From Amylostereum areolatum (lineage: Eukaryota > Basidiomycota > Agaricomycetes > Russulales > Stereaceae), in assembly GCA_012932865.1 (NCBI GenBank), contig SAXG01000011.1, positions 620,001-684,000 of the forward strand: DNA of 64,000 nt, read 5' to 3'. The stretch's first letter is position 1, and the number at the start of each line of letters is the position of its first letter. The position numbers and the translations under genes were made by a program. Below the pieces are notes generated by a model. It was not told the origin of the DNA. It did not search any database and saw nothing but the letters and a program-made list of their open reading frames with translations. Below, in pieces: positions 15,933 to 33,924 of this stretch.

Positions 15933-16571
15933 TCACTGGCATATGCCGCCCTTCTCCAGCGCACCCCTCTTCTCATCCCCACCGACGCTGATCTTCTCGA
16001 CCGACGCCGCGTCCGCGTCCGCGTCCGCCGAGGGCAGCACGCCCATGCGCTCTGCCTCCTTGCGCGTGAAGGTCCCGTACACGTCTTCGCCGTCCATCGC
16101 GTCGAGGTTGCCGGGCGGGAAGGCGAGGTTGAGCGCGTAGAAGAGGAGGAAGGATATGGAGAAGCCTGTGCGGGGCGGGGGGGAGGGATTCGGTCGGTCG
16201 GTCAGCCTAGGATCGGATGGGACGAGGGGAGAGAGAGAGAGAGAGCGCGCGCGCGCGGACGCACCGACAAAAAAAGACAGGTAATACAGCTGGAACAACG
16301 CGCGCGGCGCGCGCGCGTCCACCCTCACCGTCGCATCCAGCCCGCCCACCGTCGGCGCCCAGCCCGCGCCCCACGCCGGGATCGCGCGCAGATTGAAGCC
16401 CCAGCGGTAGTAGTACGCGCCGCGGAGGCGGAAGAGGCCGGAGAGCGCGAGCCGCCGCCGGCGGAGGAGGAAAAAGTCGCAGGCCATGATGCCCATCATG
16501 GGCGCGAGGAAGACGGAGAAGGAGGCGAGCACGGTGAGGAAGGTCGCGGCGCGGTTGGCGAGCTGCCAGGG
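15933..16571 (-). pseudogene. NCS1-type permease, 3' part (cut off by a DNA transposon)
   Basis: C-terminal part of a 12-TM nucleobase-cation-symport-1 transporter (uracil/uridine/allantoin/hydantoin permease family). It starts inside the target duplication with WQLANRAATFLTVLASFSVF, then LAPMMGIMACDFFLLRRRR, YYYRWGFNLRAIPAWG, an intron, and ISFLLFYALNLAFPPG before a cytoplasmic tail ending at 15933. The frame continues exactly from the part at 32238-33924 if one copy of CCAGGG is kept. The tail has an Asp/Ala repeat (ADADADAAS). As it stands the gene cannot give a full transporter. Confidence 0.85.
16566..16571. repeat. Target-site duplication of the 15.7-kb element, left (CCAGGG)
   Basis: CCAGGG directly precedes TATGGCAGGCC; the same six bases follow the mirrored end at 32238. 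Confidence 0.85.
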
Positions 16572-16800
16572 TATGGCAGGCCAAATGACGAAAAAATACA
16601 TGTGCGCGAAACTTTTCGCCAACATGTCGTGCGCGAGACTTTTTGTGTCATCTTTCTGCGAGACTTCTCGGAATCGTCTGAACTTGCGAGACTTTTGATG
16701 CCGACCACTGCGAGAAACTTTCTCGTCCAGCCTCTCCTCGAGAAACTTTCTTCACATCCATGTATACTAACTTTTCCAACTTGTATAGCAAAACATATGC
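16572..16800 (+). repeat. Left terminal inverted repeat, about 230 bp
   Basis: Matches the reverse complement of the right end with roughly one difference per ten bases. It holds six or so iterations of a GCGAGA(A)ACTTTTC-like motif at 20-35 bp spacing, some as short palindromes (GCGAGAAACTTTCTCG). These look like transposase-binding sites. Confidence 0.88.
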
Positions 16801-16869
16801 TTTCTGTAGGCCAATGACCCATCAAAATTGAACAAACACATCTAAATACTTATGTAGAACAAACTTGAA

Positions 16870-18625
16870 TCAACCATCCACAACCAGCCAAGTACCCTTC
16901 GCATCTTTTCCACCAGCACTTTGACAACTTTTAGGAGCACTGACCCGTTTGTACTCAAACTTGCAGCTTCTGTAAATGATGATGAACTCCTCATTGCCTG
17001 TAAGCTCAGAATTGTCACCATTTTTCTTCGGCTGTTTGTCTGATGATCCCTGCACCTGTGCACACCAGACACGCCTGCATCCAGGACACTGGGCTGGAAC
17101 CATGGCTCCCCAAGGACGGACACGTGGCGAAGACCATATGTAAGTACACATCTTGACGGAGTATGCAAGGGAAGAAGAAGCGCCACGCTTGTCGCCGACC
17201 TTAGCTTTGACGGGCCTCCTGAGGAACATAACAACACCAGAATGGCGTCCCAGCTGCAGGCTGTTGTTGAGGATTTCGCCTATCATGTTTTCTGGGTGAC
17301 GGTCATTGATATACAGGCGCTGGACGAGTGCCGTGATGAATATTGTCGTGTCGAATGGGACCAAGGCCTTTGCAGTGAAACCGAAGAGGTTGTTCACTTT
17401 CGAGCTAATCGTCTGATGAGTCCAAGTACACACAATATAAGATATGATTTCACGTACCTTTGAATGAACTCTTTCCATTCCACCACCCGTCGAGGGTTGG
17501 TGAATGTTCCACCACAACTCACAACAACGACCGTGGTATCGCAGAGTCCCATGAACTCAACCAAGGCATCGGTGATCACGTATGACTTGAACTACATGAA
17601 CAAATATGTGAGTCACAATGTAGATAAAGAAGCCAAAAACATACCTCGTCGATAGATGCACAAGCATCGCTTCTCCAGAATAAACACCCCTCGTTGTTTT
17701 CCTCAGGATTGTCGCTATCCTTGCTTTGCGAGTGCGTGGTGATGAAAATGCAGAGCTTTTTTATCTTGGCCCTATGATAGGAATTAGGAACAAGTTGCAC
17801 AGTACAGAACAAAACAAGAACATACTGGCGCATATCTTCCATGGTGGCTTGCACAGTGGCAGCATGCACATCAAATGTCTCTGGTCCATCAATGTCGAAA
17901 AGGATAGTACGCTGCACCAGTTTCGACAGATCAAAGTATTGATCATGTATAAGTTCCATTGCTGATTTTGCACCAGTGCAGGCATTGGCTTGTGTGGTGA
18001 GGGCAAGATGAACCATACCAAGACGTGGGTTCGCAACACGATGAAAGGTCGCATGCTGCGTGTCACCCTGGATCTCCAATCCATTGGGAAACATAGGAAT
18101 GAGAGAGCCCGTCCTCTCGCTGCTACGGAAAAATCCCTGGCAGAAATAAAACATCAGATCGCACCAGGTTGATTGTCAGTAAAACAAACCGAATATGGTG
18201 CATTATTTAGATCTTTATCCTTGATGTTGCAAGAAGTGCAGATGAATACCAGGCTTTCCAGCATGTTTTGGATAGACTGGGCACCCTTCAGACACTCCAT
18301 GCAGGTAGACGCATTGCAGCGCGAACAGCCGACCATATCACCGCCGTTGTTACACAAGTTGCAGCCCTACAATATTTAGCACACTACATGGTCAAACTTA
18401 GTATTATCACTTACAGGGTCATGCTCATCATCTGTGCTCATGTCCTCCTGTAGTTCCTGATGGTGAGTTGAAAATGAAGGGATGTTAAACTTGGAAACAA
18501 ACCTCTGGGTCCAACTCCGCAGTGTCCCTTTCAGTGGCATTGTTGCGAGACCCCAACTCTTCCAGTTGGAGCCTTTTAACAGTCCCACCAGTGCTCTTAC
18601 CGGCTGTTTGCTTCGTGCGTGCCAT
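16870..18625 (-). CDS. Histone H3-tail mimic + PHD-like finger + caspase/CHAT-like protein
   Basis: ATG at 18625 opens MARTKQTAGKSTGG, nearly the first 13 residues of mature histone H3 (R8 is G here; K14 is also lost). Exons 18625-18503, 18456-18415, 18366-18189 and from 18136 join in phase 0. Exon 3 encodes a PHD-like zinc finger: C-X2-C (CNLC), GGDMVGC-X2-C, C-X2-C (CMEC), FIC-X2-C. Then comes a region with KLCIFITTHSQSK and, about 55 residues on, DTTVVVVSCGGTF: strand-H and strand-C signatures of the caspase/CHAT fold. The end is a further region with a CPGC knuckle, stop at 16870. About 520 residues. Functions proposed: recruitment by H3K4/K9 readers or writers and a protease core. All functional statements are inference; exon signals and motifs are seen. 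Confidence 0.65.
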
Positions 18626-19791
18626 GAGAGGTGCCGGACAGTGGAGAAGGTGTCGAGCAAGACGACGAACGAGTGTGTGACGTGGCCGCGCGTCCTCGGC
18701 GAACGTCGGAGTTTGCCGGGTCACGTGACCAGGTTCAACTCCACGTGGCCGTTTGCTGGCACCTTTGCTCTTCGTCCCACGACGCACCCGCCACCGCCTG
18801 CCGGCGTGTGCGCGGGAGGGACGCCCAGATTGGTCGTCCCTCGCGTCGTGGAGACGCGACGACCGCTGACACGCCCGTTACGGGCGTGTCGGTGGCCGTC
18901 CACCTCGCCGCCGCTGTCCCGCGACGCGCCCGCCACCACCTGCCGGCGTGTGCGCGGGAGGGACGACCAGATTGGTCGTCCCTCACGTCGTGCGACGGCG
19001 ACGACCGCTGACGCGCCCGTTACGGCGCGTCGGCGGTCGTCCACCTCGCCGCCGCCGTCCCGCGACGCGCTCGCCACCGCCTGCCGGCGTGTGCGCGGGA
19101 GGGACGACCAGATTGGTCGTCCCTCGCGTCGTGGAGATGCCATGGCCACTGACGTGCCCATTACGGCGCGTCGGCGCTCGTCTAGCTCGCCGCCGCCGCC
19201 ATCCCGCTCATCCCCGCGGTCGCCCAACGCACCCGCCACCGCCTGCCGGCGTGCGCGCAGGGGGGAACAACCTGATTGGTCGTTTCTAGCGTCGTGGAGA
19301 CGCGGCCGCTGACGTGCCCATTATGGTGCGACGGTGGTTGTCTCGCTCGCCGTCGCCATCCCCGCCGCTGCCGTCCCCGCCGCTGCCGTCCCCGCCGCCA
19401 CTGCCGCCCCACGATGCACCCGCCACTGCCTGCTGGCGTGTGCACGGGGGAACAATCTGATGGGTTGTTCCTTGCGTTGTGGAGACGCGACGAGCGCCGA
19501 TGCGCGGTAACGGGCGCATCAGCGGTTGTCTCGCTCGCTGCCGCTGCCGCCTCGCTTGTTCCTGCTGTCCCATGACGTGTTGCTCCTCATTTTCTACATG
19601 GCAGTTGTTGTTCATGTATGTGTCACATATCATGATCACTTCGGCCATGTTTTCCCTGGGTCAGGTCTTTCTAAAGCAGTCAAAATTCACTCCGCACCAG
19701 AGTAGATTTTGATGTGTTTGGCCATGTTTGGTTTGCTGTGCAGTGACAGCACATCACCGGATGGATTTGCTTCTTCTCTCCTACCATCACC
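18626..19791. promoter_or_regulatory. Divergent intergenic region of the element
   Basis: Lies between two transposon genes that start in opposite directions (18625 minus, 19792 plus). Most of it is the GC-rich satellite described separately; the last 250 bases are AT-richer. Long open frames on both strands in the satellite are by-products of its composition. Confidence 0.5.
18780..19565. repeat. GC-rich satellite, about five 140-190 bp units with internal palindromes
   Basis: Units begin near 18781, 18924, 19063, 19226 and 19413 with a CGCACCCGCCACCGCCTGCC-like start. Each holds two inverted repeats: GGGACGACCA-GAT-TGGTCGTCCC and a weaker arm pair around CGTTACGG. Unit length and divergence grow from left to right. 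GC content is far above the rest of the element. Confidence 0.85.
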
Positions 19792-20739
19792 ATGTCCCAA
19801 AGCACTCTTGACCACTGCAACAAGCTCATACAAGCTCAGCCTGAAGCACTTAACATGAATCAGTCCAAGGAGTGGGATGCATGGTTCCAGCAGGCTCAGC
19901 CTTTGAAGGTATATAAATTGTTTGCGCTTTTTTTACACCTAGCTTATAAAGCCCTGTAGAAGCTCCTTGAGCCTGTCCGTGCAGATGCAGAATTGCAAAA
20001 GCGTAGTGATTGGCTGTTGGTGCTTAAGAATATGGATGCCGCCTTTGTCAATTATGATAACATGCAGTGGCTTATGAAAAGTATGTGCATCTGGCCACAT
20101 CTAGCAATGGAAGTAACCAATGATTCCACCTTAGATGCAGACAAGCACACAAAGAAATCCTCGTGCCTACCTTCCAAGGCTGTACCCTCTGTGGAGGCTG
20201 GTATGAGCACCCAATAATGCATATTTTGTTCTCTAATAGGCATCTGGACAGATTCACAGAGTGCTACACCTGTTACTACATTGAACTTGGATGAAGAAAA
20301 GGTTTCCTACTTTAAATTGGTGCACTTTTCTCTACTTTTTTGTGGCCAACTGAAATGAACATTACTCCTCTAGAAACATCCTGATGTGTTTGACCCTCCA
20401 TGCAATGCTTGTCATGATGCAGGAGCAACACCATGCAGGCGGGCGGTTCAGCAGCGATTTAAACGTTGTGAACGGTGTGTCAGCGAGGACATCAGATGCA
20501 GTTTCACTGTGATGCAGAAGAAGAAGAAAAACCCCACTGCTGTGAACGAAGGTATACCTCCAAAACGCCGTCGTATCGCTAAGGAAGGCATTATCTCTAA
20601 TAACTCTTCAATGGTCTCGATGCCATCGGGACAGTTGATGAGGATGGTTCAGGAGATTGATGATGCCATGTCGACTCTGAACAAGATTAGGCATGAGATC
20701 TTGGATATTGTAGAAGGTGGTGCATCTCTGGATGGATGA
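19792..20739 (+). CDS. Cysteine-rich basic protein, possible zinc-cluster DNA-binding protein
   Basis: ATG 19792 opens MSQSTLDHCNKLIQAQ. Five or six exons joined by clean GT-AG sites (for example donor 19909) keep the frame to the stop at 20739; product about 270 residues. Near residue 150 is CNACHDAGATPCRR, then RCERCVSEDIRCSF: six cysteines in C-X2-C-X8-C ... C-X2-C-X6-C spacing, reminiscent of but not identical to fungal Zn2Cys6 clusters. A basic run (KKKKNPT, PPKRRRIAKEG) follows and looks like a nuclear localisation signal; the C-terminus is helical. A role as a DNA-binding partner of the transposase is plausible, not shown. Confidence 0.6.
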
Positions 20740-21078
20740 TTTGGATGGTGGTTATGTCTTGATCCCTTAACTGTGGCACTTTTTGTGTTTGGATTACCTT
20801 GTTCGGTACAAGCTGGTTTCTGTAGCCCGTAATCCAAGGCCATGATTGCTAACATCACATGACTTTTCTGCCTACGTCACGATCAGCACTGCATTAGGTG
20901 TGGTAATTACTTTAGCTTCGTGCACGCAGAAGGCGAACATGCAGATAGTAGATACACAGGCAGGTAAGTACGATAGATGGATCCCTTCCACCGTTGCCAG
21001 GAGTCCTTGTCGAGTATATTACTTTACGCTTCGTACTAGTCAAGCTCTTCGCCATTACGGCACTTTCCACATCGGTAC
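20740..21078. other. Spacer, no gene seen
   Basis: May include the left border of the Copia remnant; no LTR pair or duplication could be recognised. Confidence 0.35.
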
Positions 21079-22123
21079 TTGAACTTTATTCGTCTCGGTA
21101 CGATAATTGTACGCTACACAGTCTTTCCTCCCTTGCGTGTTTGTACCGCAGACAATCTACCCCCTGCACTTGTCTCTTGTCCTCTCGCTCCCGTCAAGTT
21201 AAAACCGACACAAACGCGCAGTAGTTGGTTCAGCTCGACGTACACTCTATTGGCCCGACGATGTCTCCTGCGCAGACCCACAAAGCCATCCGAAGACGAC
21301 CCAACAGACCCATACAAAGACCCGTGCCGTTCCCACCCATTCCTCATTCCCGCATGTCGACCCTATCCGACTTCTGTTCTGTTTTCCTTCCCCTTGGAGA
21401 CTCGGAGCGCGCTGCCAAATGGCTGGAATGGTCGATCCGGATGGAAGCTGTGGAAGGTGGTGCACGTGGAGGTGAGCCTGAAGAAGATTGTTGCGGCAGC
21501 GGATGGGAAGAAGTCGGCGGTGATGGAAGACGGAGGAGGAGATTGCGGAGGAAACAGAAGTTCTGCTGGTTGGAAGGGACTCGGCAACAATGGCAGAAGC
21601 ACGCGCAAGGATGATTGCTCACGTCGAGAGGTCCGAACTCGCTCACTTCCGGAAAGAACACGACCCAATGGTCATCTGGCAAAAGCTCATGGCTGTACAC
21701 CAAGCCCGTGGCCTCGCAACTCGACTCACGCTTCGTCGGCGTCTGCTCACAAGCGTCAAGAAGGATTCGGAGTCGATGCAGAGCTGGGTCACCAGGGTGT
21801 GGGATCTGGCTCAGGATTTGCGGGAGATTGGAGTGCAGGTACCGGAGGAAGACGAGATCCTCACACTGACGATGGGCCTCCTGGCCTCATATGAGGCGCT
21901 GGTCGTGTCGCTACGTGCCCGTTGGTTGACTGTGGTGCTCGACGGTGACTGCATTCCATTGCAAGTGGACGGCAAACTGTCTGGAAGTGCTCTAAAATCT
22001 GGTGTCCCAGGATATCATCGACCTTGTCACTGTATGTCTGGTCTGCAGGGTAGTAGAGTGGTGCACAGCGGCTGCAGGCGACAGGAAGAAACTAGTGAAA
22101 GTCGCTACAGAGATATTGTGTAA
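21079..22123 (+). pseudogene. Decayed Ty1/Copia gag fragment
   Basis: Two frames hold pieces of a Copia-type Gag (UBN2/Retrotran_gag family): NGWNGRSGWKLWKVVHVEV near 21.42 kb and, in another frame from about 21.59 kb, HDPMVIWQKLMAVHQARGLA, RLTLRRRLLTSVKKD and VPEEDEILTLTMGLLASYEA. The frame shift between them and the absence of protease, integrase or RT show a truncated, dead copy. No LTRs were found. It is nested in the large DNA transposon. Confidence 0.65.
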
Positions 22124-22518
22124 AGAGGATCTGTCTCAGTACTGTATGGTCGCACCATTGTCATGTAATTGATAAAAGTGCATTCATCTGCAGTCATCTG
22201 CCCAAGCCCCTTCGCATTTGACAGCGGAGCATTGAGCCACGAGCCGAGCAAGGTTAGAGGCCACCCGCCGGCGGCGCTTCTCGAGTTCAATAATAATACG
22301 TCAATTACTTGACTTCCACTAATTATATGAAATGACGGATACATCCAAGGCAACAGGAATAGCCAGAGATGATTAGGAGGTGTTAAGGTTTAAGGAAAGA
22401 ACATAACAAATGAGAGTAAACTGTCGGGGAAGAAGAGGGCGACGAGTGATTATAACTGGAGTTGATGGTCAGAATGGACAACACGAAATGTAATACACCC
22501 TTACCCCCAAGCTCCTAA
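22124..22518. other. Spacer, no gene seen
   Basis: AT-rich; no coding frame or repeat recognised. It lies between the Copia remnant and the BTB gene and probably contains the BTB gene's 3' untranslated region. Confidence 0.4.
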
Positions 22519-23642
22519 CTAGACATCCATAGTGAGATCGATTGTGTTGAAATCACCAGCTTGAATAACAGGTCCGATATGGTGTTGCTGGCGGAGGTTG
22601 ACCATGGCTTCGGAAAGAAGACGAGCCTCCTTCTTGAAAGCGGATCGGTGTGACATCCTTTCGACAGTGGCCTCGTGACAGAGGGCACAAACATCAGGTA
22701 GCTGGCCTTTATTCTCCTGCAGGATTTTTAGCACATCTGCATCGGATTTTGGCTGTTCAGGATGGTTGAGCATTCTGGCAATGACAGTGCGCCATGAAAG
22801 CTCCCATGCTGCCTCGCAGACATCAGCAGCATCACAAAAGATACCGGGATAGAAATGGGGAGGAGAGTCGGCTAGATATTTGCGGTGTTGCTCGATCTGA
22901 CGATGAAGCCGCATGAATGCAGTCTGGATGTCAGAACCAAGAATCCTCAGCTCATGATCACTGAGACGATCAGGGTACATCTGGAAGACATCCGGGAAAG
23001 TATACTCGATCCATTTCTGGTCGTCTATCTTGTAGTCAAGAGCGCAGCGAAGGCGTCGGACCAGAGTCCACCCAGCAGGCCATTGATCGAGGCACATCTT
23101 GAAGTGCTGCACCGCATCGGGAATGATCCACATATGGGCAAGATGGAGAGCTGCGATGAGCTGATCGGCATTGAGTGGGTTATGAACCATGTTGTGACTG
23201 TAGATTGATGTGATTAATTGTGTTTGTCAGATCAAAAATGACAGCACATACGGTGTTCCAAATATGCAGTCCATCAATGCCTCGAAAGCATCCTCATTGA
23301 TAGCAACAAGCTTGATAGGCATTTCATCTGATGAGCCTTCGCCATCCACACCTGAAGGTAGGTGGAAGATATCCTCGAATGCACCTGCCCGGGCCATCAA
23401 GACGTCCACAGGAATTCTGTATAGGCGCATTCCAACCTGTAATATCCAAATGAGCAGGTGAGATATTAGAATATTGTCTTGTATGTATGTACCTGGAAAA
23501 CGACCATGCGCCCTTCATAATAATGGGTCGACCGACGAACAACACGAGCAGGGATATCGGCTGCTCCAGCTGCTGCAGAGGTCTGGCCTCTTTCTAGGCT
23601 TGGCTGTGTATTGGGAGGAGTTGGAGGAAGATTAAAGTTCAT
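22519..23642 (-). CDS. BTB/POZ-domain protein carried by the transposon
   Basis: ATG 23642 opens MNFNLPPTPPNTQPSLERG. Two introns (about 23492-23437 and one near 23250-23195) join the exons. The second exon has the fungal BTB signature: GMRLYRIPVDVLMARAGAFE, DIFHLPSGVDGEGSSDEMPI and INEDAFEALMDCIFGT. The third has the helical extension (LNADQLIAALHLAHMWIIP) and a C-X2-C pair (VCALCHEA). About 330 residues, stop 22519. BTB domains mediate dimerisation and often link substrates to Cullin-3 ubiquitin ligases; the Agaricomycete family is large and mostly uncharacterised. As transposon cargo it may be a captured host gene, yet its codon usage and AT content resemble the other element genes. Confidence 0.8.
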
Positions 23643-23832
23643 GAGGAAGAATAAGGAATAGAATGAATAAGACAGATGGGGACGAATGTGCTGGCAGATG
23701 AGCAAGCAGTCCTGTCACACATCTTCAAAAGAGGATGTGTGACTGTGACTATTATGTAATCAATGTCACTCGTCTGAGTGGATGTTGCCTGCTCTTACAA
23801 GTTATCCTGCATGCTGTCATCCACCCACCTTG

Positions 23833-26133
23833 ATGGACAACTTTCCCCCCTTTCCTCCCTTGCCTGAATGTATCTATAGACCATCAGGCTGGTCTCACAA
23901 CACTCTATCTGCTCATGCCTTGGTCTCCGATCACTATGCACATGCACGTCGCATTCTCCATCAAGAGGATGGTGATCCTGGACAACTCAGAGCACTTGCC
24001 GAGGTTCTCCACACCCGTGTAAGACCCATCTTTCTAGCTCTGGTCAATGAAGTCAACGACTTTGACTGGGGTGTTGTGGGCAGTCTGGCACTAGGCCAGA
24101 CACTTTACGAGCTGGATAAAGCAGCAAACACACGGCGAGAGAAGTGCGTGTATCTAGGCTCATCGTATATACAAACCACTCACTTGATCCTACTTTATAC
24201 AGAGCTCGGCGGACATTTATCATTATCGACCCTGTCACCGTCAAAAAGGTTGGAGGGCGGGGACGTCCCAGGAAAATTATCAGCGAAGATGTTTTGCGTG
24301 ATGCTGTTGGCCCTGATCGCAATATCCCGATCACACGCCTGGCCTCTGCCTTCAAGATGCATCCTGATACTATTCGGTCATATATGAAAAAGTATGGCCT
24401 TGACCATGGTTACGCGGATATGACAGACAGTCATCTGGACGATCTCATGCGTCTTTTCAAGATTAACAAGCCCGACTCTGGAAGCAAGTTTGCACACGCC
24501 TTTCTACGTTCCCTCGGGCTTAAAGTACAGAGACACCGTGTTCGTGAATCTCTTCGCCGCATCGACCGTGTAGGCCAGACACTTCGGAAGCACCCCAAAA
24601 TTACCAGGCAGAAGTACAGTGTCCCCCGTCCCAATCATCTTTGGCATCTTGATGGTCACCACAAGCTGATCTTATGGGAAATCGTGATTCATGGTATCAT
24701 TGATGGATACGACAGACAGGTACACCAGTTTTTAATATTGCCTCAACCTTGCTAACTGAGCTGTAGGTGGTACAGCTCCGTGCCAATGGCAATAACCGGC
24801 CACTCACGGTTTTAGAAGACTTTCTGGAGGCGATCATCACATATGGTGTCCCTCTACGGGTGCGTGGTGACCGTGGTGGTGAAAACAAATGGGTCGCTGT
24901 GTGGATGATAATGCATAGAGGACCGAATCGTGCATCGTTTATGTGGGGATCGTGAGTATGTCCATTTTCATTTCTGTGTCGCCACTCAAACGAAAATTGG
25001 ACAGATCTACTCATAATCAGCGCATTGAACGGCTTTGGGTGGATGTTGGAAAACAGTTCGCCCGTCGCTGGAGAGCATTCTTCACACGGCTAGAGCGGCT
25101 GCATGGGCTTGACCGCAAAAATCCTTACCATATCTGGATACTACACCACCTTTTCCTTCCTCTTATCAACACCGACTGCGACAATTTCCGCACTGAATGG
25201 AATAACCATGGCGTTCGTGGAGCAGATACTCATGAGCAGACACCTAATGTATGTGTGTTGGAATGCTATTCTGTTTATATGCTCACATTTGCTTAGGATA
25301 TGCGCTTTCTTGCACGCTTTGAGCAAGGAGTGGATGACGATGCACTTGCAGATGTCCACCCTGAGCTACTTGAGCGCTATTATGGTGTTGACGGAAGAAT
25401 ACGCACTAGTTCTCAGACTGGAGCTGGCCATGCATCCGACTCGGAAGGTGACGACCTCTCTTTTGTTTCCGATGAAGAAAACTTGGACAGCAGAAGTGAC
25501 TCAAATGTAGGCCATACTACTTCGAGATGATGTTCACACTCTGAGTTCTTTATAGGAGCCTAATGAAGATCATGTCGGTGAAGATTACCCTTCATCGGAG
25601 ATTGGTGATACCCCAATCAATGAAGATGAAGAAGAGGATAGCCTTGAATGGGGTGCCGATGAAGAAGAGAACCAGGAAGAACCAGAGATATCACCAGAAT
25701 ATGTGGATGAGGATGATGAGGAGGAGTTAGGTGATGAACTAGATGACGATGAGCTTCAAGCAGCAGATATGGCTGAGAAGATTGCCCAGGACCAGGACAA
25801 GAATATCCGGCATGAGCCTATCGAGGTTGCCGATCATCGTAGCCCATTTCAGGATTCTGAGATGGAGGAATTTTTTTGGCAAGAAGTGGAGGATCTACAA
25901 AGAAGACATATTGTCCCTGACGGTATGATGCTCACTCAAGAAGAATGGGATAGTGAAGAAGAGGATGAAGAAGATGGGGACTCTGAGGGATATCCGACCT
26001 ACGAGGATATATCGGTAGGATTTCGTATACGCAAGCAGCTAGTCATCCAGCTTCCTCCAGAGATCTGGTACCCCAGAGCTGTGTCATGGTGTCAGGCTCT
26101 CCATGTATACAATCATCGGTGTGTTCAGTTGTA
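23833..26133 (+). CDS. rve-type DDE transposase of the large element
   Basis: ATG 23833 opens MDNFPPFPPLPECIYRPSG. After an N-terminal domain of about 115 residues, exon 2 has a basic strip (VGGRGRPRKIISEDVLRDAV) and an HTH-like part (LASAFKMHPDTIRSYMKKYG). The integrase-fold core follows: D in HLWHLDGHHKLILW, D in LRVRGDRGGENKWVA, E in GSSTHNQRIERLWVDVGKQ; the last motif spans an intron that keeps frame. Then HIWILHHLFLPLINTDC and an unusual, very acidic C-terminal tail (Asp/Glu-rich, about 150 residues). No nonsense codon was seen, so this copy may be intact. It is the obvious candidate for mobilising the 15.7-kb unit. Confidence 0.82.
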
Positions 26134-26316
26134 ATTCCAGCCTTTATTGCATTCAGATCTGCACAAAGAACGAAACTCGGCATTCGGAAAAACTCGGTAT
26201 CTTTTTAGTCGGAGCTTGAATTGCCTTGAGGTTTGTGACCGATGCCCTTGACCCTACCTTGAATCTCTTCGCATCTCCCACTACCTGCTCCTAGACTCTA
26301 TTTCGACATCACTTCA
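26134..26316. other. Short spacer / probable promoter
   Basis: No coding sequence; separates the transposase stop from the ATG of the next gene on the same strand. Confidence 0.4.
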
Positions 26317-28548
26317 ATGGCTGGAGATAACACTTGAGCTGTCCCAGACTGCTTCTGCCGGCGCTTCGTTCTTCGCAAGAATCAAAAAGAGGACGATGCA
26401 TACACTTGTCGTGACTGTGGCCATATGGAATCAGCCCATCCCCAACATACCGACTCCAATGATGGCCCTTCACAGCCTCTCTCTTTAGAGATGGACAAGG
26501 TCATGGCTAAAGTTCGTGCGACCGGTGACACATCATCCTTTGCGTACCACATCCCTGCTGCTCGCTCAGGACAGAAGAAAGCATCTAGGGATACTGCTAT
26601 GCAGGAGGCTGTTAAAGGTCTTCGATATCATCACACATCTTCTCAGCCTGCCAAGCTGAAGAAGAAAAGCAACGCCAAAGACGAGATGAAGAAGATATCA
26701 AAGCTTCTTACAGACACATCTGGTCCTACTGTATGTCATTGTTCCATGTTCGATTGCATTCTCTCTGATACATGTATATACCAGATGAGCTCAACAAGTG
26801 CCAGCACCTCGAAGGGAAAAGATAAGGTGGTGGAAAAGAAATCAAAGCCAGCTGTAAGTTGCAATTTTATTCAAGTTGTGTCCATGCTCTTAAGTGGTGT
26901 AGGATGAGACATATAGTGTTGGAGAAGTCGTTCTTAGTCCATGGGGTCTTACCCCACCTCGCAAATTCACTGGAAAGGGAAAGGTGTATCTTTCTCCCTA
27001 CATAGTGTTATTCGTCCACTCATCATGTCATCATTTCCTAGGCGAAGATGCATGAGCATGATAGAGGAGGCCTACTCCAGGGACCGAAGCCCGACGCAGG
27101 ACGACGAACTATCGGTACATCCATCAAGGTTAACAGTCTAGATCAAGGGCTGCTGACCAGCTATGGTATGATCGTTTCACCCCAGAGTGGACACACCGTG
27201 TTCTCCTGGAAAAGGGATGCTAGCCCTCTTGACATCTACAATTTCATTCGACACGATGTCTTCAAGGATCACATCTTATTCCAGTGGCTGGATCTCAAGG
27301 TTCCTCGTCCTCGTGAGGTTGACGACCAGCTGCCTCTCGTGATGCTACGAAAGGCATCAACCTCTGTCTATGTTGCAGGCGATATCACAAGTGCTGCCAA
27401 TCTTGCTAAGATGCGCACTCCTGGTGGACGTGGGGCTGAAGGACAAACTCTTTACCTTGGTACGGTTGACCTCTGTTATATGCATAGCTTATCTAACACT
27501 TATTTTAGCAACCCGTATAGAGATTCCTGTGCAGGTGCTGCAGCGGTGGAACGATCCAGATGCTCCCGATGTTCTAGAAGAGTTTGCCCTGCCTACGTCT
27601 TCAGATGAAGTGCATAGTGATGATGGCGGCTCTGAGAAAGAGAAAGATGACAATAACTCGGAAGACAGAGGTGCGTAGTTGAGTATTTATTCGAATGCTA
27701 CTTACTTCTGTGCAGAGCCCGAGTTACCACCCAGAATGACCACACGTAGGAGCAAGCGCCTGCGCTCGCCATCACCTATTGCCATTGATGATAGTGATGA
27801 GGACAACATTCCTGCATCTCCTCCCCCCCGTCGCAAAAGCAAGAGAGTGCGGCGTCGATCGGTTATTCATTCTCCTACCGTGACTCCAGTAAGAGATGCA
27901 CGGGAGCGTGGTGCATCTTCTTCTCCCGATGAAGAGGAGGCATATGTTGCTACAGAGTTTGAAGAAACTGAGGACGAGGGCGGCATATTCCGTAGGCTTC
28001 AATTGTCTCTAACATCTGGCCCAAGTTCTAACTTTGCCGTCCCGTTTACTAGCTACTGGGCATAGCACAGTCACTCAGGATGTTATCCAGGCTACGAGTA
28101 GCTTTGCGAGCATCACTGTGAATGAAGATGGAACCATGACTGGCGGACCTTCCATCAGTCAAGGGTATGATAACAATGGTGTAGAGATTCCTGCACCGTC
28201 GCAGCTATGTATGTCATTCTATGTTGATTTCGTCAATCTGTTGGCTAACATCACTTAGTCTTCCCTGCTGGAGATGAGGACAATCATAGTGAACACACCG
28301 CAGATCCAGACATGACCGACATTTCTCCTCTACTCCACTCCACACCACCACCAGAAAGGCGTTCTCGGCCGAGCAGGGTTCCATACACGATTCCCAAAGA
28401 CAACTCCTTGGCAGCATCTTCTTCTCGCTCACGCCTTCCATCTACTATTCCAGCAGGGGCAGTTCAAGCTCGTATCCAGAGCAAGACGGCGGGAAAGCTT
28501 CTTGGGCTTGCACCCCTTACCAAAGATCCTTACGACTCCGATGATTAG
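26317..28548 (+). pseudogene. Zinc-ribbon protein with disordered basic tail; in-frame TGA at codon 7
   Basis: ATG 26317 gives MAGDNT, then TGA (26335-26337), then the same frame continues with a zinc-ribbon-like unit: PDCFCRRF, TCRDCGHMESAHP (C-X-C, C-X2-C-X-H-X4-H). Later exons, joined by clean splice sites, hold a Ser/Lys-rich linker, a globular region (SYGMIVSPQSGHTVFSWKRD, LPLVMLRKASTSVYVAGDI, IEIPVQVLQRWNDPDAP) and a disordered tail with charged runs and nuclear-localisation-like signals (TTRRSKRLRSPSP, RRKSKRVRRRS), ending at 28548. The downstream ATG at 26425 could start a protein lacking the zinc unit. The stop is one C-to-T change from CGA. The family is unknown to me. Confidence 0.6.
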
Positions 28549-28620
28549 GGTGTATCAGTCTCCCTCTGGAATGTGTTTCATGGATGGTCATTTTCATTTG
28601 TGGTAGCTTACGATAGTTTG

Positions 28621-28715
28621 TTACGAGTTACAATGATTTTTTACGGATTTCCATGATTTTTTTACGACACTCAATGATTTTTTTACGACACTCAATGATT
28701 TTTTACGACTTACGA
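28621..28715. repeat. About 20-bp tandem repeat (TTTTTTACGACACTCAATGA-like)
   Basis: Four to five imperfect copies of a unit of 19-22 bp; two copies of TACGACACTCAATGATTTTT are identical. It lies just after the stop of the zinc-ribbon gene. Confidence 0.75.
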
Positions 28716-28885
28716 TCTCTCCTCCCCACTCACTAAATACGACATATGAATAAGATGCATTTGTAGATTGTGAATTTCAATTCTGTAGCAGTGTTTTGAG
28801 ATAGTGTTCCTTTGGATGTTGCGAGAATTAAGTAGAGAGGGAGGAAAGCACCTCACTTGTGTGTGTTTGCAGCTATGAAAAGCAT

Positions 28886-28985
28886 GTTCAAATGGTGTAA
28901 TGGTAGTGCACGGGGTTTGTGAGTGTGAAATATCCTCCATCAACCGTGGCTCCAAGTTCAAATCCTAATGGTATCATAAAATAAA
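28886..28985 (+). other. Possible tRNA-derived SINE head
   Basis: TGGTGTAATGG (28893-28903) fits the tRNA box A consensus and GTTCAAATCC (28956-28965) fits box B, 53 bp apart, followed by an A-rich tail. Acceptor and T stems do not pair, so it is not a working tRNA gene. It may be a SINE remnant or chance. Confidence 0.3.
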
Positions 28986-29092
28986 TAAGTAAGTGTGAGG
29001 GTGGTCTTGCTGATAAGATAACGTCTATTCTGGTTTTGCTCCTTTTTCTCAGATAAAGTAGGTATTTTGTATCTAAAAGAGTAGAACATAGC

Positions 29093-29759
29093 TAGTGTTC
29101 AACAAATTATAAAGTATACTTAAATATAATCGTATTCATACAAAAAAATACCGATATATTATGGCTTCTACGTATTCTGTTCGGCCTCGATATGGTTGAG
29201 TACAATATGTTATATTACGAGTACGATACAGTACGCACCTGATATTTAATTGTAATACAAGTATGCCAGGAACACAGCTACTTACCCGGTCTACCGGCTT
29301 CAAGACGGTCTTGCGAGTCCGGAATAGATATCCAAATCGAGAATAGCATCTCCGGCAATAGCGGGAGCTGTCCGGGACCCTGCCGATGCTCAGTCCCATT
29401 CTCAGAAGGTGTGCCGCCGCTGTTTCCCACGACATGCTGCCAATCCCAGCGGCCAGTATCAGCACCCCGTCACTGCCAATGGTGGTAGGCTCAGTATCTC
29501 AACTAAAGTCCCAATAAACATGCTCTTGGGGTACATGGTTAGCTCATTAATGAGGTTGGACATAGTACAGAAAGTTCATTAGGTCTAGTTGAGGTCTAGA
29601 GCAATAACTTCAATTAGATACAAGTAAATAGGAAGATCTGACAAATACGATACAATATAGTACAGGTACGAGTAAATATTGGAATGGCCGCCTTCGTAAT
29701 AATACGTATTCGATATAATATGGTCGGCCAGCATATTTACTCGTATTTGTTGAACACTA
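29093..29759. mobile_element. 667-bp hAT-type nonautonomous element
   Basis: Terminal inverted repeats TAGTGTTCAACAAAT (29093-29107 and mirrored at 29745-29759) are flanked by perfect 8-bp duplications AACATAGC (29085-29092, 29760-29767). Eight-base duplications and a TAGNG terminus are hallmarks of hAT. The inside is AT-rich with TACGA/TCGTA-rich subterminal stretches and no coding capacity. Confidence 0.88.
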
Positions 29760-29818
29760 AACATAGCAAGAGATCCTCGCAGGCGTGTCGGCGGGCGGAG
29801 GCAGGAGCCTCGGCGTCG

Positions 29819-29888
29819 GCGCAGGCGTGTCGGCGCAGGCGTGTCGGCGCAGGCATGTCGGCGCAGGCATGTCGGCGCAGGCGTGTCG
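29819..29888. repeat. 14-bp minisatellite, five units (GCGCAGGCGTGTCG)
   Basis: Five direct 14-bp units, two of them with A for G at position 9. Degenerate copies precede it from about 29778. Confidence 0.9.
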
Positions 29889-30116
29889 ATAGCAGTGGAA
29901 GAAAGAAGGGGTAAGGATGCAGATAAATGTGTGGTGCTAGCATGCACAGAATGTGTGTAGCTGTTTTATCTTTCTCGAGTGGCTGTTGTAACAGTGTGAT
30001 GAGCTAGCAAGATGATTGTTTCCATTTCTGGGGAAAAATTCCCACGGTATTCAGATTCAGATTTCCGGGGCCAACCTCTGCCTCTGCTAGCTACCACTAC
30101 ATTCTCCCCTACTACT

Positions 30117-31956
30117 ATGTCATCTGCCCAGCAAAAAGGTGAGAGACTATCTCTGTAAGACAAATTCAAATTGTTTAGGCCCCTTTTAGCCATTTCTACT
30201 CTGCTACAGAACAGCAAAGCCTGCCAGCTCATCAGCAGTGCTGCTTTTGCTACAGGTGATGTTGCTGCACTGGCAGAGTTTGCCAACTATCTTAAAGGGG
30301 TAGGGTTGAAAGATATGAAGGTATGCCATCTTTCTGCCCGGCTAAATGTCTATGAAGTCCCTCTCACCTCCTGGATTTAGATTGTAGCTTTTATGGGCAT
30401 TATAGGGCGTCTTGCAAAGAACGGCAACTCTCAGGCTATAGCCATCAAGCAGGCTCGCCAGGAGCATACTTCCCAAGGCCGACGTAGTGATTCTGCCTTA
30501 GGATCTACTGCTATGCACTATGACAAGCGCCGCCTTGTATGGATACCCCTTTTTTGTGCTCATGTTTGTGCTGATTCAATTTATTTCTAGATCAAAGATT
30601 TTGGGCTTGACCATTCTCCATGCACGTTAAAAGATTTCATTGCTGCTCCCAACGTCGAGGTCATTGTTCGTCACCGTGGAGAGTCACCTGTGCCCCGCAA
30701 TACCCTCCTCTATGATGCACCAGGCGGTATCACATTTACTCCTGGCGGCAAGGCAGCACCTGGATTTTATCTTGTGCCACAGAATAAGTCTGTCATCTTT
30801 ATTGCTGAGGAAGAGGGGCAGCCTGCAGGTGTGTATGTATATGCTTTATTTTTCCAACTATGTTAACATTTGGCTCTGCAGTTCCTGACGGCAAGCTACA
30901 AGCATGTCATTCTATGATACACTTCAAGATTGAGCTTGTGGTCCTACGCAACATCTCTGCCGGGTATGGGATGGAGGAAAGTGAGGTTGCTTCATTTATG
31001 GAGTGGCTATCTTCTGTTGTTAGCCAGGCCGTTGCTGACCGTCGCAATGTTCGGGTTAGAGCTTCCACTTTTTGTAACCATCACCATAATGCTAACACAT
31101 GATTACCAGCCCAACCATAAGGGGAACCTTGTGCAGCTTGGATGGAATGCTGGTCCACGCCATGCTCGGGTCTGGGGCCTTGCAAAGAGCTTCACCAGGG
31201 ACTCCATCACACCTTCGCAGGCTGAGAAGCGTGACACTGATGCCCTTGCTGGATTTTCGATGATGTGGGCATTTATACGTGCACGGATGCCGAAAGAAGT
31301 GGTGGATGCTGTGGAGGCATCCCTAGATAAGGCAGGTATGCCTTCCATGGCGACACGTCATATTGAGCAAGGTATATGTGTATTATATCTGCTGCTGTGT
31401 ATAGTGCTAAGAACATCTTTAGGATATGGGTATAAACTCCCCATCCGTGGCAAGGAATACATATTCCCACTGGCCGACCGTGCACCTCCTGAGGGATATA
31501 TGTCACAGGGATATTCTGCGTATGTTTCTTGATCTTCTAACTCCTGTCTACATTATTGATCATGTATTTCTGCATAGCCCATCACATACAGACCAGTGCT
31601 TTGCACCGTTTGCTTTTTCTTGGACTATTGATCGCCATGTCAGCGGTCTACCTGTGCAGCTGTCCCCACCGCGGCGCTCTACCCGTCACAAGAGCAAGAG
31701 CACTACATCTATCGCTGCTAAGAAGGTGATTGCCACTGGTGGCAACTTTGTTGATCTTTCTCTCCATGTCATCGTCGAACAAAGCATCGACAGCCTTGCT
31801 GCGTATAACCCCATCTATCTCCATGGGACAACAGTTCACAATGGTGTCATGACACGTGGATGGGCGATCACATTCTCACAGCACATTTGGAATGCCTTTA
31901 AGGTGGCGGAGAAGGGCATCAAAGTTGTTTCTGATGCCGGTGTAGGGAAGGATTGA
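30117..31956 (+). CDS. Putative 2OG/Fe(II) dioxygenase-like protein (TET/JBP-like?) in the transposon
   Basis: ATG 30117 opens MSSAQQKAISTLLQ across a 51-nt intron (30139-30189); about seven more introns keep frame to the stop at 31956. Product roughly 450 residues. The C-terminal third has SHTDQCFAPFAFSWTIDR (HxD), about 80 residues later GGNFVDLSLHVIVEQSID, then YLHGTTVHNGVMTRGWAITF: a second His followed 11 residues later by Arg. HxD...H...R with intervening GG/strand pattern is the metal and 2-oxoglutarate signature of the double-stranded beta-helix dioxygenases. TET/JBP oxidases of this fold are known as passengers of basidiomycete KDZ transposons. Here the assignment rests on these motifs alone; the N-terminal two thirds are not recognised. 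Confidence 0.55.
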
Positions 31957-32007
31957 CAATGGATGGCCATAATAGAGTTATAGCTTACTAGTACTCTGCA
32001 CCATGAA

Positions 32008-32237
32008 AGACATATATTTGCTATACAAATTGGAAAAGTTAGTATACATGAACACAGAGCAAGTTTCTCGAGAAAAGACTGCACGAGAAAGTTTCTCGCA
32101 GTGGTCGGCATCAAAAGTCTCGTGAGTTCGGACGATTCCGAAAAGTCTCGCAGAAAGATGACGCAAAAAGTCTCGCGCGCAACATGTTGGCGAAAAGTTT
32201 CGCGCACATGTATTTTTTCGTCATTTGGCCTGCCATA
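32008..32237 (-). repeat. Right terminal inverted repeat, about 230 bp
   Basis: Ends ...CATTTGGCCTGCCATA, the mirror of the left end. Identity is total over the outer 55 bp and then drops to about 85-90%. Confidence 0.88.
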
Positions 32238-32243
32238 CCAGGG
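32238..32243. repeat. Target-site duplication of the 15.7-kb element, right (CCAGGG)
   Basis: Same six bases as 16566-16571. Confidence 0.85.
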
Positions 32244-33924
32244 CTGGACGAGCCACGCTGCGAACTGGCGGGAGAGAGGTTGGGGGTTGGGAGGTGGATG
32301 CAGAAGGGGAAGGTGGGGGGGAAGGGACGCACGAAGGTGATCATGGCCCCGCGCCGGATGTTGATGTACTTGGGGAACATGCCGCTGAGGTCGATCCCGC
32401 CCGCGACGGCGTTCCCGCATACGTTCTCAAAGCCCGACTGTGACAACCACGGGGTGGATGAAGGAACGCGTGCTGGAGAGGGCGACGAGGGGGGCTTACG
32501 GTGGTGGCGAACCCGAGCGCGAGGAAGAAGACGGCGGCGCGCGCCTTGGGGCTTCCCTGGCCGGACGCCATCATGCGCATGAGGAGGTCGGGCGGGTTCC
32601 AGTAGATCTCGCCGTAGATGTTCTGCGCGGCGGCGGTGACGACGAGGCCGACGAAGCTGACCAGCGTCCCGACGAAGAACCTGCGCGCGCGCCCGTCAGC
32701 GGAGGATGGAACGGGGAGAGAAGGGGGGGCGGGGCGGAAGGACGGACAGGCAGAGCACGGTGCCGGCGAAGTACCCGCGCGCGTTCTTGCCGTAGCGCGA
32801 AAAGTCGGAGCCGTTCGTCATGCCCGCGGCCTTCCCGCCGATGGCGGAGTTGATGCATTGCATCATGAGCCACGACGTGGACCAGGCGGAGCGGGAGGTG
32901 CGCGTGCCCTGCCTGAAGAGCGGGCCGACGCCCTTGGAGACCGCGAGGGACCAGATGACTGTTGTGCAGACCGAGAAACGTCAGTGGAGAATTCGGCGTC
33001 GGCGGGGGGGTGGGTGGGAAGGGGACGCACGCATGCAGATCATGGCGAGGCCGCAGTAGAGGGAGATGAACTGGAAGGGGCGGCGGAAGTTTTCGGGGGG
33101 CATCCAGAGGAAGGGGATGGATCCTGCCCAGAAGACGAAGAAGCCGATCATCTCCTGAGTGGTGGTCGGGACGCTCGCGGGGAGGCCTGCCGTCGACGGG
33201 TGTATGAGCATGCTGCATCGCGAGCGGACACAAAACGGGAGGGAGAAACGGCGCGTACCCTTAGGGATGTTCTGGAAGGAGGGGAAGAGGGCGGTGATGA
33301 TGACGGCGCAGAGTTTTCCGCCGGTCCAGCACTGGGTCGCGTTCCAGATGAAGTTGAGCATGACGCGCTGGATGAGCGGGATGTAGCTCCCGCGCATGCC
33401 CCAGGAGAAGCGGTTCTGGATGGTGAAGCCGATGTGCCATCGAAGCCCGCACCAGGCGATGAAGCTCGCGAAGAAGGTGATGACGGCGCGGGCGACGATG
33501 ATGACGGCCTGGGTGAGTTGATCAGCTGAGGCAGAGCTGTGGGGTTGTGTATCGAGTTATTTAAGTACCATGGACTGGCCGACGGAGAGCCCGGCGGTGA
33601 GGAAGGTGTTGGGCATTTGCCATGTCGCGACCTGATAAACAGTGAGCAACGGTGGCGCGTTGATCGAAAGAAGAGGCGGGGACACACGTTGAGAGAGCTG
33701 AGGGTCCAGTATCCGAAGTACTCGAACATGCCCCACGTCCTGCGGCTGAGTCGACTGGTCAGGCAAACCCGCGCGAACTTGAAGGATGGGGGGGAAAGCA
33801 CGTACGACGGCGGCAAGGGGACCAAGTCGCGATTGCACCAAGCGTCGGTCTGCTCGTGCTTCTGCTCGTCGCCGCGGAGCCTGACAAGGTCGTCGACGCG
33901 CTTGAACAGACGCTTGGTGGCCAT
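32238..33924 (-). pseudogene. NCS1-type permease, 5' part (truncated by the DNA transposon)
   Basis: ATG 33924 opens MATKRLFKRVDDLVRLRGDE. Several short introns separate exons with strong family motifs: GMFEYFGYWTLSSLN, VATWQMPNTFLTAGLSVGQS, IAWCGLRWHIGFTIQNRFSW, GSYIPLIQRVMLNFIWNATQ, MQCINSAIGGKAAGMTNGSD with FSRYGKNARGY, and GFENVCGNAVAGGIDLSGMF with PKYINIRRGAM. The last exon stops at WLVQPW in the target duplication. The family imports uracil, uridine, allantoin or hydantoins with cations at the plasma membrane; the substrate cannot be told from sequence by eye. The adjacent hydantoinase-like gene favours hydantoin-type substrates. Confidence 0.88.

Follow-up and report, generated by a model that had tools for sequence, protein, structure and literature searches.

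Why would a DNA transposon carry, beside its transposase, a gene whose product carries at its start a stretch almost identical to the histone H3 tail? The question is raised by a 15.7-kb element of the basidiomycete Amylostereum areolatum, which occupies positions 16572-32237 of a stretch of 64,000 nucleotides (the window) on contig SAXG01000011.1, here called C13. An earlier note, made from the letters alone, had described a transposon with terminal inverted repeats (TIRs), a transposase and five further genes that together formed a chromatin-themed set. Having searched the genome (57.1 Mb in 182 contigs, likewise numbered), we assign the element to the known IS3EU superfamily and give about even chances to the following joint reading: an IS3EU element has inserted in a permease gene, it carries BTB and zinc-ribbon proteins as accessories, and it deploys the H3-mimic protein of gene A and a candidate oxygenase, the product of gene F, against host silencing. 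The six genes, A to F, are all multi-exon and were drawn by eye from splice signals, without transcripts; the exon limits of A and of the transposase gene D broadly agree with exon-wise matches to relatives on C45, C24, C137 and C105.

The strongest and most surprising part of the chromatin theme is the N-terminus of gene A, for which the sequence evidence is strong. The predicted protein starts with MARTKQTAGKSTGG, in which 12 of the 13 residues that follow the methionine are those of the H3 tail; the earlier note had already seen an H3-tail mimic here. When 13-mers were compared in all six frames of the window, the next-best matched the tail at 7 of 13 positions, and we reject a chance origin on this difference. 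The mimic begins at the first methionine of its frame and is present in all four copies of the element that include gene A (the window, C156, C164 and C132). Paralogous sequences occur elsewhere in the genome, and the one on C105, 42-46% identical in the parts compared, starts with MARTKQSAKKSQGASG (MARTKQSAKKS); an in-frame stop lies a short distance upstream, and no other methionine precedes this start. In an ungapped comparison with gene A, 8 of the first 10 residues after the methionine of the C105 protein are identical, compared with only 4 of the following 26 (the exon end of C105 being uncertain). Because the start is retained while the residues that follow diverge, the recurring part appears to be the K4 side of the tail. 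R8 is altered in both proteins, which argues against a decoy for K9 methylation. The paralogue on C137, as far as it was read, has no MARTKQ start and differs in its upstream part. Genome-wide, there are 12 ATG-led MARTKQ sites (the reversed pattern, used as a control, gives 0), of which five belong to H3 genes, five to gene A and its paralogue, and two are unexplained. These two (C56:680636-680653 and C146:69368-69385) have no histone H3 match downstream at E up to 1 and may be other mimics or chance occurrences.

Two further features of the gene A protein were predicted in the earlier note. A PHD-like finger matches PF00628 with 21.4 bits on one exon (E=2.5e-4) and 15.8 bits on the whole protein, below the cut-off of 24 bits; its ligand spacing is compatible with C4HC3, but a cysteine stands at the usual histidine position, and this arrangement is also found in the paralogue. 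For the supposed caspase-like core, the motifs are conserved: the C-terminal part of the C137 paralogue, 48% identical to A, retains THS, CGG and CPGC, and in both proteins THS and CGG lie about 55 residues apart, with a hydrophobic stretch before CGG. A profile built from the two proteins gave 0 PDB matches (E up to 10) and 0 Pfam matches, so that the caspase-like label denotes a conserved histidine and cysteine motif. A near-copy of the H3 tail joined to a PHD-like finger in a transposon gene suggests interference with host DNA packaging and silencing.

The limits of the element are exact to the base. The CCAGGG duplications described in the earlier note are present on both sides, and its inverted ends of 230 bp measure about 226 bp, with the termini TATGG..CCATA. 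When 300 bp of each flank are joined with one duplication removed, the resulting 600-bp query matches an empty site at C113:380642-381243 from position 1 to 600 with a printed identity of 100%, the match of 602 bases implying a small gap. The element breaks a gene for an NCS1-type nucleobase permease (window 15933-16565 and 32244-33400), whose frame is restored across the joined flanks and which matches PF02133 on both sides. Thus the permease locus exists in two versions, near-identical over the 600 bp compared, one filled (C13) and one empty (C113). They probably represent two haplotypes, and the element probably inserted not long ago.

In fungi, IS3EU elements have a 6-bp target-site duplication, TIRs longer than 30 bp and the ends TAYGG..CCRTA, in the portion of PMC12730594 consulted, and the superfamily is described in the corresponding portion of PMC10045372 as having TA..TA ends and a target-site duplication that is usually 6 bp. 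The present element has 6-bp duplications at two sites (CCAGGG and GTCGGG), TIRs of about 226 bp, and termini that fall within the TAYGG..CCRTA pattern. Gene D encodes the rve-type DDE transposase that the earlier note had recognised, with the three catalytic residues D254, D311 and E346 and 34 residues between the last two. The target-site duplications, the termini and the DD34E rve features lead us to regard the element as a gene-rich member of IS3EU.

A search of the genome with the left TIR, as the earlier note had advised, finds siblings: there are 7 places, two in the window, two on C156 and single ends on C164, C132 and C133. The copy on C156 (183817-198592) has both ends and all six genes, the same set between matching TIRs, with 96.9-99.3% identity in the long blocks. 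A third copy extends over two contigs, where C164 corresponds to window 16569-23918 and C133 to window 23911-32237. These look like halves of one insertion because their outer flanks, left on C164 and right on C133, have the duplication GTCGGG in common. The break falls at the 8-bp sequence GCTCATGC (window 23911-23918; C164:159101) and may reflect a further large insertion or a rearrangement. Two insertions, each with a clear duplication (CCAGGG and GTCGGG), are therefore independent of each other. The left flank of C156 equals that of C164 over 1500 bp (99.93%), whereas its right flank (ACGGCA..) is unlike both its own left flank and the right flank of C133. Since the left flanks agree and the right flanks differ, C156 would be the same insertion as C164 on the other haplotype, or a duplicate, with its right side rearranged. 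Within the element C156 differs from C164/C133 at 89 of 14,123 sites (0.63%), compared with 1 difference in 1500 bp of the shared left flank, a contrast that is suggestive only. Shorter copies are a left-end fragment of 2.6 kb on C132 and a relic of 1.4 kb on C150, at whose junction the neighbouring bases are identical to those of C133.

The two ends of the element are not equivalent. Over 221 bp, the left TIRs of C164 and C132 are identical to that of the window and C156 has 2 differences, and the right TIRs of C156 and C133 are identical to that of the window. Left and right TIRs differ from each other at 19 or 21 positions, compared with 0 or 2 among left ends and none among right ends (n=4 left and 3 right ends). 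Because ends of the same side are near-identical among copies while left and right differ, we take this asymmetry to be a family trait.

Part of the cargo recurs beside a related transposase. C45 carries a transposase with 37-59% exon-by-exon identity to D. A divergent BTB gene (31% identity) stands on one side of it and a zinc-ribbon protein gene in the same orientation on the other, an order and orientation that match those of the element. C24 carries a 95.6% copy of the C45 stretch compared, with BTB about 8 kb away. The C45 zinc-ribbon region aligns to gene E with a score of 63 (shuffle mean 28.3; 0 of 500 shuffles reach it), whereas the middle and C-terminal pieces remain within the shuffle range (110 and 32 of 500 shuffles reach their scores). 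Nine further transposase places were searched at E up to 0.01, each with flanks of about 1.5 kb. Only C45 and C24 have BTB or zinc-ribbon partners, the BTB gene of C24 coming from a separate search, and none was found at C150, C170, C95, C2, C117, C161 and C66. The 10.6-kb stretch of C45 contains no homologues of A, B or F, and no IS3EU ends with a matching 6-bp duplication.

The copies also bear a strong CpG C>T footprint. Changes were polarised by majority rule among three copies, of which two occupy one insertion site, and window 18700-19560 was excluded. Among 14,123 three-way aligned sites there are 120 polarised changes, and 76 of these are C>T or G>A, 56 of them in CpG. Relative to all cytosines of the element, C>T changes are enriched in CpG with an odds ratio of 12.3 (p=5e-25), and TCG is their commonest triplet (23). 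Within the element the ratio of observed to expected CpG amounts to 0.78, compared with 1.13 for the remainder of the window. Methylation-linked mutation thus probably acts on the copies, and the footprint supports the existence of a pressure that anti-silencing cargo would answer.

Gene F is the second component that might address such a pressure. The iron-triad motif HxD...H of the proposed oxygenase is present (H363-x-D365 and H442, followed by R453), as the earlier note had seen, but no relevant match was found in Pfam, PDB sequences or NCBIfam, including any to a TET/JBP profile, and the oxygenase label is therefore a reading of the motif. In PE-type TET/JBP proteins HxE replaces HxD, according to the part of PMC12730594 consulted; gene F carries HTD and so is not of this type. 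No match to PF20515 (TET) was found in the genome, and control genomes were equally silent. A single-sequence AlphaFold model of the last exon of gene F had a mean predicted local distance difference test (pLDDT) score of 32 and was not used.

If these observations are combined, the following sequence of events can be envisaged. The DD34E transposase would excise the element at its TIRs and reinsert it with a 6-bp stagger. Since they also accompany the related transposase in the second family, the BTB and zinc-ribbon proteins may be accessories of transposition or of its regulation. Once the initiator methionine had been removed, protein A would expose an A-R-T-K-Q N-terminus as H3 does. It might then compete with H3 for host readers of the K4 face of the tail; alternatively, its tail might sit in the PHD-like finger of the same protein and give way to real H3, a self-inhibition that would be released on chromatin. 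Together with the candidate oxygenase, protein A would blunt methylation-linked silencing of the element. An anti-silencing role of the cargo is plausible on these grounds. We advance only tentatively the fuller proposal, that a free N-terminal H3 mimic encoded by a transposon, with its own tail-reading finger and a protease-like core, is a switch or decoy directed at the H3K4-linked chromatin system of the host and is accompanied by an oxygenase outside the known TET types.

Several findings weigh against the joint reading. The finger lies below its Pfam cut-off, with cysteine in place of the usual histidine, and the caspase and oxygenase readings are without profile support; the chromatin theme of the earlier note is partly supported, in that at least the H3-mimic/PHD-like protein looks related to chromatin, with PHD and BTB as weak profile matches and caspase and oxygenase as readings of motifs. 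Paralogues of A lie on C137 and C105, two contigs without any of the 59 transposase matches listed, and therefore gene A may also live outside such elements; in 0.8-kb pieces beside these paralogues no convincing IS3EU ends were found. Judging from the CpG footprint, mutation linked to silencing appears to affect the element in spite of its cargo, and the two flanks of the C156 copy form no duplication of their own. Finally, no purifying selection is visible at the given depth since the copies separated: relative to the window copy, C156 has 35 nonsynonymous and 5 synonymous codon changes, and C164/C133 has 36 and 7 (gene D being covered over 1968 of 2046 bases).

This pattern of codon changes and the location of the A paralogues both favor the view, which we consider rather unlikely, that an IS3EU element picked up host genes and carries them passively, as cargo that serves neither the element nor any chromatin function. 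It is also favored by the lack of any relative of gene F elsewhere in the genome at E up to 0.001, and by a fragment of a copia-type gag gene (window 21524-21985; PF14223, E=7.6e-19; a stretch common to the C156 and C164 copies), which demonstrates that bystander sequence does reside within the element. However, passive capture would not keep BTB and zinc-ribbon genes in the same order and orientation beside a transposase of low identity, and the H3-like start is found again in a second, diverged A protein. The recurring BTB-transposase-zinc ribbon core would also suit a set of proteins that serves target choice, complex assembly or copy-number control instead of anti-silencing, in which the mimic and finger tether the transposase to particular chromatin. 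PHD-type fingers do read H3 tails, but a tail mimic alone would be a poor tether, and the two sites with duplications are too few for a test of target preference; we judge this alternative unlikely. Gene A might otherwise encode a chromatin-gated, caspase-like protease that is self-inhibited by its H3-like N-terminus and acts, for example, in H3 clipping or cell death. The retention of THS, CGG and CPGC in two diverged proteins (48% over the region) is consistent with this idea, but their joint profile matched no PDB or Pfam entry; we regard it as the least probable of the alternatives.

How does the element compare with systems already described? In the portion of the literature consulted, IS3EU elements with TET/JBP and alpha-kinase genes are reported from Pucciniales, and one with TET from Tuber indicum, the only TET+ IS3EU named there outside the rusts (Kojima 2025, PMC12730594); the TET+ lineages given for Agaricomycotina are Kyakuja, Zisupton, EnSpm, Plavaka and Helitron2. 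Neither BTB nor PHD occurs as a word in the main text of that paper. Our element resembles the TET+ IS3EU elements in its 6-bp target-site duplication, TAYGG..CCRTA ends, DDE transposase, and extra genes that include a proposed epigenetic enzyme. In place of their transposase, TET/JBP and alpha-kinase set, however, it has BTB, zinc-ribbon, Cys-rich, H3-mimic/PHD-like and oxygenase-like proteins, the last without a TET profile match. With Kyakuja and Zisupton (KDZ) elements that carry AG-type TET/JBP, it shares the character of a fungal DNA transposon with dioxygenase cargo proposed to act against DNA methylation, but the transposase differs, and Kyakuja has a 7-bp duplication and no TIR and Zisupton an 8-bp duplication in the part of PMC12730594 consulted. 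We set a KDZ assignment aside on duplications, termini and gene content; the transposase lineage is thus different from KDZ, as had been claimed, but is not a new one, IS3EU being known. Polinton/Maverick elements are 15-20 kb long and have TIRs and an rve-type integrase. The present element is similar in these respects and in its 6-bp duplication (as given for them in the part of PMC10045372 consulted), but the Pfam matches of its six genes include no PolB, capsid or packaging ATPase. This assignment was likewise set aside, on termini and gene content. Short copies of the H3 tail that engage H3-binding proteins are familiar from the SNAG domain, which binds LSD1, and from the mimic peptides of G9a/GLP. 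Those are host proteins, whereas the mimic here forms the N-terminus of a protein encoded by a transposon and precedes a PHD-like finger. Searches of the open-licence PMC literature listed no described element with an H3 mimic. In summary, the superfamily is known and epigenetic cargo on IS3EU has been published, while the gene set of this element was not found described in the same literature.

The coordinates of all features are collected in the Table. From left to right, the order is A(-), tandem repeats, B(+), a copia gag remnant, C(-), D(+), E(+) and F(+).

Table. Features of the IS3EU element and its borders in the window.
Feature	Position	Strand	Basis
Target-site duplication CCAGGG, left copy	16566..16571	.	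Sequence; empty site on C113
Left TIR, starts TATGGCAGGCC	16572..16797	+	228-nt arms, 91% complementary
Gene A, 482 aa, 7 exons: H3-tail mimic (exon 18503-18625), PHD-like finger, THS/CGG region, CPGC near end	16870..18625	-	Sequence, profiles
Tandem repeats, spacing 141 to 187 bp, between divergent genes A and B	18741..19545	.	Sequence
Gene B, 261 aa, 4 exons: Cys-rich, C-x2-C-x7-C-x10-C-x2-C-x6-C, then basic stretch	19792..20739	+	By-eye model
Gene C, 337 aa, 3 exons: BTB domain protein	22519..23642	-	PF00651 E=7e-4; homologues on C45 beside transposase, and on C24
Gene D, 681 aa, 6 exons: DD34E rve-type (rva_4) transposase, acidic C-terminus	23833..26134	+	PF24764 E=4.9e-57
Gene E, 621 codons, 8 exons: N-terminal zinc-ribbon-like motif, long low-complexity part	26317..28548	+	By-eye model, copy comparison
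Gene F, 485 aa, 8 exons: H363-x-D365 ... H442 ... R453, candidate 2OG-Fe(II) oxygenase	30117..31956	+	Motif
Right TIR, last bases CCATA	32012..32237	-	Inverted-repeat comparison
Target-site duplication CCAGGG, right copy	32238..32243	.	Sequence; empty site

The cysteine pattern of gene B, which we take to be Zn2Cys6-like, has no Pfam match, and the gene has three weak matches elsewhere in the genome (39-40%). The BTB domain proposed for gene C does match PF00651, at 20.2 bits, just under the cut-off of 20.5 bits. In the window copy, codon 7 of gene E is a premature stop, which the two other copies compared lack. The C164 copy has an 11-bp deletion in gene C and a 2-bp gap at an exon border of gene B. 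Upstream of gene A lie the tandem repeats, and repeated units of the CCGCCAGGAG type, identified by eye, are also found upstream of the C105 paralogue. Between genes E and F, the window copy contains a nested element of 667 bp (29093-29759), presumably hAT-like by its form, with perfect inverted ends of 15 bp (TAGTGTTCAACAAAT) and an 8-bp duplication, AACATAGC; it is missing from C156 and C133. The C133 copy is itself split, at window position 31394-31398, by a 5.5-kb long terminal repeat (LTR) retrotransposon with 537-bp LTRs that are 99.8% identical and a 5-bp duplication.

The filled permease locus on C13 beside the empty one on C113 provides a ready comparison within one genome. If the mimic works as we propose, transposons would use histone mimicry as viruses do, and this element would offer a compact system in which to test how mobile DNA encounters methylation and H3-based silencing in a fungal host.

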